Notes under the pieces: model-generated | Told to the model about the DNA's origin: nothing | Seen by the model: only the letters and a program-made list of their open reading frames with translations | The model's database searches: none | Made by a program: the position numbers and the translations under genes | Source of the DNA: Halobaculum sp. MBLA0147 | GTDB lineage: Archaea; Halobacteriota; Halobacteria; Halobacteriales; Haloferacaceae | Length of the DNA stretch: 64,000 bases | NCBI RefSeq assembly: GCF_041361345.1 | Contig: NZ_JBGKAD010000001.1 | Span: 1,116,001-1,180,000 of the forward strand | Reading direction: 5' to 3' | In this document: positions 37,018-48,648 of the stretch, piece by piece | How positions within the stretch are numbered: position 1 is the stretch's first letter | Layout of the letters: every line of letters begins with the position of its first letter

Positions 37018-37069
37018 TCCGTCTGCGGAGCGGTGCGGTGGCGGAGGTGCTCGTGGTGGATGCAGTGCG

Positions 37070-37310
37070 GACGCGGTCGCGGGGCGGTGCAGTGTGGTGC
37101 GGAGCGGTCGCGGGGGGTGCGGTGTGGTGTTGGGCGGTCGCGGGGCGGTGCAGTGTGGTGCGGAGCGGTCGCGGGGGGTGCGGTGTGGTGTTGGGCGGTC
37201 GCGGGGCGGTGCAGTGTGGTGCGGAGCGGTCGCGGGGGGTGCGGTGTGGTGTTGGGCGGTCGCGGGGCGGTGCAGTGTGGTGCGGGGCGGTTGCGGAGGC
37301 GGTCGCGGTG
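37070..37310 (+). repeat. Tandem array, 61-bp unit, about 3.5 copies
   Basis: This array fills most of the 469-base gap between the peroxiredoxin and mrpA genes. The motif GGGGCGGTGCAGTGTGGTGC recurs at 37081, 37142, 37203 and, slightly changed, 37264, giving an exact 61-base period. Copies are almost identical. Each unit contains smaller GCGGTCGCGGGG and GCGGTGTGGTG blocks. All six frames stay largely open because of the composition, but no codon pattern argues for a protein. Confidence 0.92.
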
Positions 37311-44548: not shown

Positions 44549-45952
44549 TCACTCGGCGTCACCACGGAACTCGCGGGCCAGTTCGGCGGCGACGCGAGTG
44601 CCGAGTGCCCCCTTCGTGCCGACGAACTCCGCGACGGGCGTCTCCGGGTCGCGGACGAACAGCGTCCGCGTCTCCGCCTCCCGCATGACGCTCGCGTCGT
44701 TGGCGACGACGAACGCCAACTCGGCGCGCGTCAGCGTCTCGCGGGCCCGTGCGACCAGCGCCTCGTCGTCCCCCTCCGTCTCGGCTTTGAAGCCGACGAT
44801 CGGCAGCGACGGGTGCCGGTCGCGGACCTCGTCGATCAGCTTCGGCGTCGGTGCCAGTTCGAGTGTCAGCGACGCCTGGCCGGAGCGGATCTTCTCGTCG
44901 GCCGCCGTCGGGGTGTAGTCGGCGATCGCCGCCGCCGAGACGAGCGCGTCGACGGCTCGCTCGTCGCAGGCGTCGAGTACCGCCGCCGTCATCTCCGCCG
45001 CCGACTCCACCCGTCTGGTGTCGGCCCACTGGACCGCCGGGCCGTCGTGGACCAGTGTCACCGTCGCGCCCGCCGCGTAGCAGGCGCGCGCCACCGCACG
45101 CCCCGTCCGGCCGGAGGCGCGGTTCGTCAACACCCGGATCGGGTCGACGGACTCGCTCGTCGCGCCGGCCGTGACGACGACGTGCCGCCCCGCGAGTGGC
45201 CCGCGTCCGGCGCTCGGTGGAGCCTCGCTCGGCGCCGTCTCTCCTGCAGTCGTCCCCGACCCAGTGTCAGAACCCGTCTCGGTCGCGTCGTCGCCGCGCG
45301 CCGACGGGACAGTGGCACCGACGCCGGCGCCGACGGTCGCGGCGGCGCGTGCCGTCTCCGTCACCACGTCCGCCTCGCTCGCGATCTTCGCCTTCCCCTC
45401 CTCGATCCGCGGGTCGACGAACCGGACGCCCCACGAGCCGAGGGTGTCAAGCGCCTCGCTCACGCCGGGGTGGTCGTACATCGGCTCGTGCATCGCCGGC
45501 ACGACCACCGTCGGGACGCCCGCGCCGAGTGCGGTCGTCGCACACGTCGTCACCGGCGAGTCGTCGATCGCGGCGGCGATCTTCCCGACGGTGTTGGCCG
45601 TCGCCGGCGCGACGAGCAACACGTCCGCCCAGCCGTCGCGCCCACACAACTCGACGTGTTCGACCGCACCGGTGATCTCCGTCACGACCGGCCGGTCGGT
45701 GGCGAACTCGACCGCCCACGGGTGGAGGATGCCACGCGCCGACTCCGTCGTCACCCCACGGACCGCGGCGCCGTGGCGTCTGAGTTCGTGGGCCAACTCG
45801 ACCGTCTTCACCGCCGCGATACTCCCCGTGATCCCCAAGGCGACGTTCGTGTCCGCGAGCAGGTCGCTCGCCCGATTGGGGGCGTCCGCAGCGGCCGGCG
45901 AGTCGTCACGGTCTACCCCCTCCGCGTTCTCCGCGTCCTCGCCGCCCGTCAT
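44549..45952 (-). CDS. coaBC: Bifunctional CoaBC (phosphopantothenate-cysteine ligase / decarboxylase)
   Basis: This coenzyme A pathway enzyme joins 4'-phosphopantothenate to cysteine and decarboxylates the product to 4'-phosphopantetheine. The N-terminal flavin decarboxylase shows LGITGSIAAVKTVEL, IVEHVEL-type His in VEHVELCGRDGWADVLLVAPATANTVGKIA, and VVPAMHEPMYDHP. The C-terminal ligase has VVTAGATSESVDPIRVLTNRASGRTG, SAAIADYTP and LAPTPKLIDEVR. A 90-residue acidic/Ser/Thr linker joins them. The start overlaps the end of the upstream eIF2B-like gene as ATGA, so the two are co-translated. The total of 467 residues is slightly long for the family. Confidence 0.93.
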   Translation of the reverse strand: MTGGEDAENAEGVDRDDSPAAADAPNRASDLLADTNVALGITGSIAAVKTVELAHELRRHGAAVRGVTTESARGILHPWAVEFATDRPVVTEITGAVEHVELCGRDGWADVLLVAPATANTVGKIAAAIDDSPVTTCATTALGAGVPTVVVPAMHEPMYDHPGVSEALDTLGSWGVRFVDPRIEEGKAKIASEADVVTETARAAATVGAGVGATVPSARGDDATETGSDTGSGTTAGETAPSEAPPSAGRGPLAGRHVVVTAGATSESVDPIRVLTNRASGRTGRAVARACYAAGATVTLVHDGPAVQWADTRRVESAAEMTAAVLDACDERAVDALVSAAAIADYTPTAADEKIRSGQASLTLELAPTPKLIDEVRDRHPSLPIVGFKAETEGDDEALVARARETLTRAELAFVVANDASVMREAETRTLFVRDPETPVAEFVGTKGALGTRVAAELAREFRGDAE

Positions 45953-46875
45953 CCGTCCGACCCTGGTGGCTCCGCCGCGGCGGCGTCCGTCTCCGCCAGC
46001 GGCGTCGGCTCGCTCAACCCGTCCTCGGTCGGGACGCGCACGCCCTCGTCGGTGAGCACGCGGTCCAGCAGGTCGATCGGCGTCGCCTCGTAGGCGGGAT
46101 TCTCGATCGTCACGTCCTCGACGGGTTCCCGCATCACCTCGTACGGGGGTCGGAACTCGTTCTCGAACCGGAACCCGTCGCCGACCACCTTCGTCCCCGA
46201 GCCGACCACGTCCACCGGCACGTCCCGCCGGTCGGCGGCCGTCGCCACCGGGAACGTCCCGATCCGGTTGTAGAAGTCCCCGCCGACGACACAGTCCATC
46301 CCGACGAGCACACGATCACACTCCGGCAGGACGTACCCCGCACCGGCGTCCGTCGTCAGGTGGACTTCGATCGGGTCGATCGCCGCGAGGTGGCGCGCCG
46401 TCTTCCGTCCGAGGTACCGCGGCCGCGCCTCGGATACGTACACCGTCAGGTGTGCCCCCTCCGTCACGGCCGTCTCGATCGCCTCCAGCACGGTCGAGGA
46501 GTAGTCGTGTGTGAAGATCGTCTCCCCGTCGGCGATCGTCTCCGCGGCGACGGCCGCCGCACCCCGCTTGCCCGCCTCGATCCGCTCGGTGACCCGCTCG
46601 ACGGTCTCTTCGAGGAGCTCCTTCGCCTCGGCCGTCGTGTCTGCGACGCCCGCGACGCTGTCGGACACCTCCCGCATCGCCCGGTGGAGCGAGGCGTGCG
46701 AGGGGTTCGCCCGCCGGAGCACCCCGGTGTTGTGTTCGAGGTCCCGCTCGAACTCCTCTAAGGTCGCGTACTCCCGCTCGACGAGCTCCGTCAGCGCCCG
46801 CGTCGCCTTCACCGCGACCACCGACGAGGAGTGGGTCTGCATCTCGCGAATCTCCGCGACCGTCTCGTCGATCAT
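45949..46875 (-). CDS. eIF2B-alpha/R15P-isomerase superfamily protein
   Basis: This 308-residue protein belongs to the family that includes eIF2B regulatory subunits, ribose-1,5-bisphosphate isomerase and MtnA. Motifs seen are NPSHASLHRAM, IFTHDYSSTVLEAI, VYVSEARPRYLGRKTARHLA and DRVLVGMDCVVGGDFYNRIGTFPVA. The site that is TxCxS in the R15P isomerases reads THDYS here, closer to the THGYS of eIF2B alpha, so isomerase activity is doubtful. It is upstream of and overlaps coaBC by four bases. Either a translation-related or a metabolic role is possible. Confidence 0.75.
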   Translation of the reverse strand: MIDETVAEIREMQTHSSSVVAVKATRALTELVEREYATLEEFERDLEHNTGVLRRANPSHASLHRAMREVSDSVAGVADTTAEAKELLEETVERVTERIEAGKRGAAAVAAETIADGETIFTHDYSSTVLEAIETAVTEGAHLTVYVSEARPRYLGRKTARHLAAIDPIEVHLTTDAGAGYVLPECDRVLVGMDCVVGGDFYNRIGTFPVATAADRRDVPVDVVGSGTKVVGDGFRFENEFRPPYEVMREPVEDVTIENPAYEATPIDLLDRVLTDEGVRVPTEDGLSEPTPLAETDAAAAEPPGSDG

Positions 46876-47256: not shown

Positions 47257-47922
47257 CTACGACCCGCTGCGGTAGCGATCCAACCGCGCCGCCACCTCGC
47301 CGGAGAGGTCCGTGAGGTGGGCCGTCCCGTACAGGCCGACGGCGACGCCGCCGACCAGGTCGAACAGCAGGTCGAGCATCGTGTCGCCGAGGCCGTACTG
47401 CGTCAACACCTGTCCGGAGCCGGTGAGCGAGGAGAGGCCACCGAGCGCGAACTCGATCACCTCCCAGAAGACGCCGAAGGCGGCGACGAAGACGACGACG
47501 AAGACGAACGTGAACCGCGGCGGGAGGGAGATCGACTCCGTGTGTTCGTCGATCCCGCGGACGACGGTGTAGCCGACGCCGGCGACGACGGACGACGACA
47601 GCGCGTGGGTGAGGTGGTCCCACCACCAGAGGTCGCGGTAGAAACTCCCCTCGGTACCGGGGATGCCGACGACGCCGAAGGCGTGGAGGAAGACGGCGGC
47701 GGTGATCCACAGCGTCAACCCGGCGTCCATCGGCACCTCGTAGTCGCGTTCGAGGATCGCCGGGACGTACGTCACCGCCAGCGCGACGCCGGCGTTGACG
47801 ACGATCCCGAGACTCCGCCGGTCGAGCCCGATGAACACGATTCCCACCAGCGCCAACTGCATCGCCCGGGACAGCTGCCGCTGGCGACGTGGCGAGACCC
47901 CGAGGCGGTCGCGAACTCTCAC
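47257..47922 (-). CDS. YjdF/DUF2238-like membrane protein
   Basis: This integral membrane protein of 221 residues has about six helices. The motif WWWDHLTHALSSSVVAGVGYTVVRG, then FGVFWEVIEFALGG and YGLGDTMLDLLFDLVGGVAVGL, is the conserved core of the DUF2238 family; the aligned Asp/His/Glu suggest a site within the membrane, but the function is unknown. GTG 47922 overlaps the stop of the short ORF at 47919-47966 as GTGA, with GGAGGTGGTGG just before it. It forms a coupled unit with the 48010 gene. Confidence 0.8.
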   Translation of the reverse strand: MRVRDRLGVSPRRQRQLSRAMQLALVGIVFIGLDRRSLGIVVNAGVALAVTYVPAILERDYEVPMDAGLTLWITAAVFLHAFGVVGIPGTEGSFYRDLWWWDHLTHALSSSVVAGVGYTVVRGIDEHTESISLPPRFTFVFVVVFVAAFGVFWEVIEFALGGLSSLTGSGQVLTQYGLGDTMLDLLFDLVGGVAVGLYGTAHLTDLSGEVAARLDRYRSGS

Positions 47923-47966
47923 GCCACCACCTCCACTCGTGGGCGGGAGAACGGGAGACGACTCAC
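47919..47966 (-). CDS. Relay ORF 2, 15 codons
   Basis: On the minus strand a GTG at 47966-47964 overlaps the stop of relay ORF 1 as GTGA. The peptide is MSRLPFSRPRVEVVA, then TGA at 47921-47919 overlaps the YjdF-like GTG at 47922. It repeats relay ORF 1 with changes at three middle positions and at the end. GGAGGTGGTG lies 5-7 bases before its start. It is too short for a folded product; a coupling role in translation is more likely. Confidence 0.5.
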   Translation of the reverse strand: MSRLPFSRPRVEVVA

Positions 47967-48013
47967 GACTCCACCACCTCCACCCGTTGGCGAGAGGACG
48001 GGAGACGACTCAC
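47963..48013 (-). CDS. Relay ORF 1, 16 codons
   Basis: The GTG at 48013-48011 overlaps the stop of the upstream membrane-protein gene (TCGTGA) as GTGA. The peptide is MSRLPSSRQRVEVVES, ending TGA at 47965-47963, which overlaps relay ORF 2. Its last residues, EVVES, repeat the end of the upstream protein. This ORF arises from a 31-base direct repeat (47951-47981 and 47998-48028) that carries both the Shine-Dalgarno-like GGAGGTGGTGG and the stop/start overlap. Confidence 0.5.
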   Translation of the reverse strand: MSRLPSSRQRVEVVES

Positions 48014-48648
48014 GACTCCACCACCTCCGGGGGGAGGCGCTCGGAGCCACCCGCGCGGCGGCGGAAGTACACCTCGAACGCGACGCCGGCGAGGAGCCCG
48101 ACGAACGTCGCGGCGACGAAGTCCCACATCAGCGCCGTCTCGACGGCGTGCTCCGGCCGGCCGTCCAACAGGAGTCGCGTTCCCAGCAGGGTGTCCGAGA
48201 GCCACCGCGCCAACGCCCACAGGCCGGCGGCGGCAGTCGTAGTCAACACGACGAAGAACACCGCGAACGGTTCGTTCATGCGGACGGGTGTGAACACGTC
48301 CAGTTCCACCGCGACGACGAGTGCGACGGCGGCGACGGCGAAGAACGTCGTCACCCGTCCGGACAGCGGGAGTCCGAACAGCCTCTCTCCGGCGACGAGT
48401 GTCCGCCCGACCACCGGCAGCGCCGCCAGCGCGAGCACCTCCCACGGGAGCATCGCCAGCGGGTGCCGCGTCGCGACGGGCGGGACGGCAGCCAGCGCCG
48501 CGACGAGGGCGACGAACCCACCCGAGACCAGGTCCCCGCGCAGTGTCGTGACGACCGCCGCACCACCGAGGAACGCGACCACCACCCACGCGAGCGCGGC
48601 GTTGACTCGCCGTCGTTCCACCACGTCGCGCAGTGTCGACCGAGCCAT
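48010..48648 (-). CDS. Six-helix membrane protein, unknown function
   Basis: I do not recognise a named family. The 212-residue product has hydrophobic segments at about 19-37, 41-58, 66-80, 90-108, 124-143 and 172-190. Only a short basic loop (MARSTLRDVVERRRVN) precedes helix 1, so the N terminus is probably inside. No motif with conserved charged residues within a helix stands out apart from MWDFVAATFVG. It is the first gene of a unit with the YjdF-like gene; the two ORFs in between are linked by GTGA overlaps, which suggests that both membrane proteins are needed together. Confidence 0.7.
   Translation of the reverse strand: MARSTLRDVVERRRVNAALAWVVVAFLGGAAVVTTLRGDLVSGGFVALVAALAAVPPVATRHPLAMLPWEVLALAALPVVGRTLVAGERLFGLPLSGRVTTFFAVAAVALVVAVELDVFTPVRMNEPFAVFFVVLTTTAAAGLWALARWLSDTLLGTRLLLDGRPEHAVETALMWDFVAATFVGLLAGVAFEVYFRRRAGGSERLPPEVVES

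Follow-up and report, generated by a model that had tools for sequence, protein, structure and literature searches.

Introduction

In Haloferax volcanii, nine of nine tested gene pairs that overlap or are very closely spaced proved to be strictly coupled in translation, and a Shine-Dalgarno (SD) motif does not drive de novo initiation at the downstream gene (PMC6728339). Gaps of 22-23 nt abolish or nearly abolish reinitiation in this organism (PMC10666635), in which reinitiation efficiency ranges widely between pairs upon SD change; in E. coli, reinitiation needs no more of the upstream gene than its last 15 nt. Coupled pairs are usually scored by direct overlap alone, and intervening short ORFs go unannotated. 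The mycobacterial MIRU consists of tandem units located between genes, each with an internal ORF coupled at -4 (PMC12548453), and has been proposed to serve differential translation within operons (PMC2734929). Its copy number varies between strains (PMC9392950), and a promoter was reported in the MIRU-bearing senX3-regX3 spacer of M. tuberculosis (PMC4213456).

Here, we analyze a gene junction in a 64,000-nt stretch of the genome of Halobaculum sp. MBLA0147 (hereafter the window), at which two membrane-protein genes, A and B, are linked by three overlaps in series through two mini-ORFs. The preliminary description of this DNA treated the arrangement as one not known to have been described, a view that does not hold since MIRU is a close precedent (PMC12548453, PMC2734929). 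Our literature search uncovered no account of archaeal mini-ORF relays in series, although this does not prove that none exists.

Results

Anatomy of the A-B junction

The features of the junction, with the basis of each assignment where one applies, are as follows.

48010-48648, minus strand: gene A, the upstream partner, a 212-aa six-helix membrane protein (ORF)
48018-48028, minus strand: GGAGGTGGTGG, SD block preceding mini-ORF 1
48010-48013, minus strand: first GTGA overlap, A stop / mini-ORF 1 start (sequence)
47963-48013, minus strand: mini-ORF 1, MSRLPSSRQRVEVVES, 16 codons plus stop (sequence, link chain)
47971-47981, minus strand: GGAGGTGGTGG preceding mini-ORF 2
47963-47966, minus strand: second GTGA overlap, mini-ORF 1 / mini-ORF 2 (sequence)
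47919-47966, minus strand: mini-ORF 2, MSRLPFSRPRVEVVA, 15 codons plus stop (sequence, link chain)
47924-47934, minus strand: GGAGGTGGTGG preceding B
47919-47922, minus strand: third GTGA overlap, mini-ORF 2 stop / B start (sequence)
47257-47922, minus strand: gene B, a 221-aa DUF2238/YjdF-like membrane protein (ORF)
47921-48028, minus strand: tandem repeat of period 47, two full units plus a partial third copy (TRF, sequence)

Direct reading of the minus strand shows that gene A ends ...GGAGGTGGTGGAGTCGTGA, with its stop at 48010-48012. Mini-ORF 1 starts at the GTG 48013-48011 and mini-ORF 2, whose 3' end is 3 nt shorter, at the GTG 47966-47964. These coordinates bear out the preliminary description, in which two ORFs of 15-16 codons and three GTGA overlaps join A to B. 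The 31-base direct repeat of period 47 that it reported was recovered at the same positions (47951-47981 and 47998-48028, an exact match), within an array detected by TRF with a score of 182. The full 47-nt units are 89% identical, and the partial third copy is a 14-nt GGAGGTGGTGG-containing block inside the tail of gene A. The motif GGAGGTGGTGG occurs four times in the window, three of them at the A-B junction, vs 0.04 expected, and the repeat at this junction exceeds chance.

An SD-type motif at ribosome distance, also noted previously for each junction, is indeed present: GGAGGTG, a 7-nt match to the 16S 3' end GGATCACCTCCT found in this genome, ends 8, 8, and 5 nt before the start codons of mini-ORF 1, mini-ORF 2, and B, respectively. 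All three junctions have the defining geometry of -4 termination-reinitiation pairs, namely co-directed ORFs with an RTGA overlap, and the common but non-essential placement of the SD within the tail of the upstream ORF is also seen at each. The junction region is predicted to fold better than shuffled sequences (z -2.67), with the SD of gene B paired in isolation (unpaired probability 0.05), which would weakly favor a terminating ribosome over free initiation.

Genes A and B

The structural model of gene A contains six predicted helices (pLDDT 79), and that of gene B (pLDDT 81) displays a similar six-helix pattern, both models being of moderate confidence. A search of the PDB for related folds with A and B returned nothing, the best E values being 0.31 and 0.64. 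Gene A was assigned to no family. Gene B matches Pfam DUF2238 (PF09997) at 18.3 bits, below the gathering cut-off of 26.4, and 21 of 25 of its homologues match this family at E<=0.01; on these profile matches, we describe B as DUF2238-like only. There is no in-frame start upstream of that at 47922, a position consistent with the starts in relatives. A profile comparison between A and B (probability 61%, E 8e-5) suggests that the two are distantly homologous, and they may be paralogous subunits of one, possibly heteromeric, membrane complex. The region 47257-48648 has the look of a distant-paralogue pair, nearly always adjacent and linked, with a homologue of A lying upstream of B at all but 3 examined loci. 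The next pair downstream on the minus strand, an eIF2B-like gene (45949-46875) and a CoaBC-like gene (44549-45952), overlaps by 4 nt (45949-45952).

The A-B junction in relatives

Loci carrying A and B were gathered from whole genomes and public contigs, and stop-to-start links were traced from A to B. This yielded 148 distinct haloarchaeal junctions, among which paralogous pairs are included and related genomes are not independent. In 146 of the 148, A connects to B in one direct step, by overlapping or adjacent stop and start codons (128 at -4, 6 at -1, 8 at -8, 2 at -14, and 2 at +1), and 114 of the 128 junctions at -4 have an SD of 5 nt or more. The three-step chain occurs in the window alone. 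The only other non-direct junction, in a Salinirussus MAG (L080), has a 24-nt gap between A and B and a 12-codon ORF, MCRHSRGSHEAP, that starts via TGATG at the A stop and ends 14 nt inside B. At eight loci, B has become longer at its N terminus than B of the window, by 4-52 codons, with the -4 start retained.

The three other species of the genus that were compared, with one genome per species (G001, G002, and G003), all have a plain GTGA overlap (3/3) and no copy of the repeat. Because all three have the plain overlap, this comparison identifies the 91-nt insert as derived, new to this lineage. No relative encodes the mini-ORF peptides.

The tail of mini-ORF 1 copies that of gene A at 19 of 20 nt, vs a background of 0.7%. 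For the 27-nt interior of the unit, no resemblance to the A tail, the B head, or the region upstream of A exceeded what shuffles or genome tiles give. In the ancestor, A would have been joined to B by a single GTGA overlap, the state kept in relatives. A local tandem duplication over the junction, with a unit of 47 nt (2 mod 3), would then have occurred; after a handful of substitutions and the loss of 3 nt, the net insertion would be 91 nt. That the first step spanned the junction is conjectural since the 27-nt interior resembles neither the B head nor the A tail. Each unit carries both an SD block and a GTGA, so that the insert forms two mini-ORFs through which B keeps its connection to A.

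Does the intact chain show selection?

We simulated every 20-80 nt tandem duplication spanning the overlap, in the window minus its insert and in three relatives. Duplications of length 2 mod 3 produced a relay in 97-99% of cases, those of 0 mod 3 almost always extended B in frame, and, for the window and G003, those of 1 mod 3 left B unlinked. In the insert itself, the simulated chain survives four random substitutions in 63% of trials and a 3-nt deletion in 95%.

The base rate was estimated over 464 kb of this genome, taken in stretches, with genes called by codon usage within this analysis. Overlap-linked chains of small ORFs occupy 10-19% of co-directed gaps of 13-300 nt, vs 4-15% in two shifted frames. 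The corresponding counts are 10 vs 4-7 of 101 gaps when the best start is used and 18 vs 9-14 of 96 gaps when all starts are allowed, a relay excess that is suggestive, though the numbers are small. The preliminary description had stressed that every frame and overlap is intact despite changes between copies. The intactness is confirmed, but it proves little as a signal of selection because a 2 mod 3 duplication yields a relay automatically and chance relays are common; at the A-B locus, intact frames are thus weak evidence of selection.

A parallel case at azlC-azlD and other arrays

When 170 genomes of the family were scanned for pairs of SD-RTGA blocks separated by 20-50 nt, further arrays emerged. 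One lies between azlC and azlD, so named by sequence resemblance. In a haloarchaeal genus other than that of the window (g13; 52 genomes/species read), 42 azlC-azlD junctions are direct at -4, 10 contain a mini-ORF, and none is broken. The mini-ORFs (loci L214, L215, L217, L218, L220, L221, L223, L225, L228, and L230) measure 10, 12, 12, 12, 14, 14, 15, 17, 17, and 18 codons, and carry GTGA at both ends in 10/10. All ten belong to a single 18-member clade, and on a FastTree tree the state changes four times or more, two of these changes being forced by well-supported branches.

These ten mini-ORFs differ in length only by whole codons. Under a single origin of the mini-ORF, the six lengths imply at least five indels, and the probability of this outcome, were frame irrelevant, is about (1/3)^5 = 0.4%. 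The mini-ORF tail copies the azlC tail in 8/10 (15-20 of 20 nt, background <=1.3%), and its head resembles the azlD head in some loci only. Whole-codon lengths and copied tails together support a duplication origin and maintenance of the link at this locus. The comparison among relatives proposed in the preliminary description, when run at azlC-azlD, shows a mini-ORF length that varies while the GTGA overlaps persist. By analogy, azlC-azlD provides independent support for relays such as the one proposed for the window's insert.

In G073 (L212 / L204), on the minus strand of the locus, a DJ-1/PfpI-like gene (ending DRRGEVWVS) is followed by three copies of a 62-nt unit. They form two 21-codon mini-ORFs with GTGA overlaps and, after these, a 9-codon ORF that connects to no gene. 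A superoxide-dismutase-like gene lies further on, outside the chain (both genes are named by sequence resemblance). It follows that arrays of this sort can appear without a role in coupling. In the same genus as the window, contig 432 of G003 (L211 / L213) bears a GAGGTG-GTGA tandem repeat of 26-nt period, with chains of 6-12-codon ORFs and no upstream gene. Three further pattern matches (L205-L207) were rejected, as their first 'start' appears inside the upstream ABC-transporter gene. Within the window, another tandem repeat (37065-37310; 61-nt unit, 3.9 copies, 97% matches, GC-rich) has a peroxiredoxin-like gene on one side and a large antiporter/NADH-dehydrogenase-like membrane gene on the other.

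Discussion

Based on the above data, we propose that a relay born by duplication keeps B coupled to A, a reading that we hold to be probable. A ribosome ending A would reinitiate on mini-ORF 1, then on mini-ORF 2, and then on B, with the mini-ORFs acting as connectors rather than as functional peptides. A 15-codon ORF should be long enough for this, given that the last 15 nt suffice in E. coli. If the gap limit of H. volcanii holds here, an unlinked 87-nt spacer would uncouple B, an outcome that the mini-ORFs would avoid. B would probably receive fewer ribosomes than through a single junction, with a possible effect on dosage. The three-step hand-over suggested in the preliminary description thus stands as plausible, being in line with coupling in H. 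volcanii and with the 146/148 direct junctions, whereas the intact frames that it noted do not demonstrate selection and the arrangement is not without precedent. The insert is a real and MIRU-like element that probably preserves connectivity, and by analogy with H. volcanii the relay is the likeliest route by which B stays coupled to A.

The main alternative is a neutral by-product, in which the duplication happened to be 2 mod 3, the mini-ORFs are unused, and B initiates by itself at GGAGGTG-GTG. B's own SD could recruit ribosomes directly, which is a point against the relay. In addition, the relay geometry follows mechanically from such a duplication, survives most of the simulated substitutions and 3-nt deletions, and often occurs in this genome by chance, while the G073 array exists without an overlap-linked recipient gene. 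Against this, the SD does not support downstream de novo initiation in H. volcanii, the SD of B is predicted to be paired, and linkage is unbroken at 148/148 A-B junctions and at 52/52 azlC-azlD junctions, with no broken class. We consider this alternative rather unlikely, though it retains appreciable weight.

A second possibility is a contingency-like dosage device, in which each added junction lowers reinitiation and the repeat copy number tunes the ratio of B to A. Tandem units could gain or lose copies, the efficiency of reinitiation in H. volcanii varies widely on SD change, and MIRU copy number is strain-variable (PMC9392950). However, in the one genome of this species, 11% of sites differ between the two copies, a divergence that speaks against turnover in the very recent past, and we regard such a device as improbable. 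Still less probable is a promoter inside the insert that transcribes B separately: the senX3-regX3 spacer of M. tuberculosis offers a precedent (PMC4213456), but the insert, at 66% GC, is unlike the usual archaeal TATA region. That the mini-ORFs encode functional small peptides is scarcely credible, since frame 0 is the best-scoring of the three in each unit but its codon-usage score is still negative and well below those of A and B, the two peptides differ by two substitutions and a trimmed end, and they are encoded in no relative.

More generally, relay mini-ORFs arising from stop-start tandem duplications could be recurrent, frame-selected translational connectors in haloarchaea. When a coupled junction grows, only those lengths would be kept that either lengthen the downstream gene in its own frame or create a mini-ORF linked by overlaps, and the spacer would be translated to maintain coupling. 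This claim rests mainly on azlC-azlD, and we advance it tentatively, as somewhat less likely right than wrong. If relays do work, some pairs 25-100 nt apart remain coupled through a translated spacer, and stop-start tandem duplication would be a simple route to spacer growth without uncoupling of the operon. The junction in the window offers a clean natural test of several consecutive reinitiations by post-termination ribosomes.

It is instructive to compare this junction with the known systems. The -4 pairs of H. volcanii (Huber et al. 2019, 2023) share with it the RTGA overlap, the SD in the upstream tail, the co-directed arrangement, and the haloarchaeal setting, but they connect two genes in one step, whereas the window has three steps in series via ORFs of 15-16 codons. 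Integron ORF-11/ORF-17, attC short ORFs, the bicistronic design, and the axe-txe minigene likewise involve a short ORF that influences or provides translation of the gene after it (PMC8876359, PMC12548453, PMC8708949); these are bacterial leader or cassette-site ORFs and not tandem copies of a gene junction. The azlC - mini-ORF - azlD arrangement resembles the window in its GTGA at both ends and its copied upstream tail (8/10), and differs in having one step, in 10 species and with varied lengths. The likeness to MIRU, for example in the senX3-regX3 spacer, is one of arrangement: 40-100 bp tandem units between co-directed genes (the period is 47 in the window), each with an ORF that overlaps its neighbors (GTGA at the three junctions of the window). 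The repeat of the window is archaeal and confined to a single locus; in the rest of the genome, no second copy was found, the other matches being fragments of 16-50 nt with E>=0.01, so that it is neither a dispersed family nor a MIRU member. It is a repeat that would work like MIRU without belonging to it.
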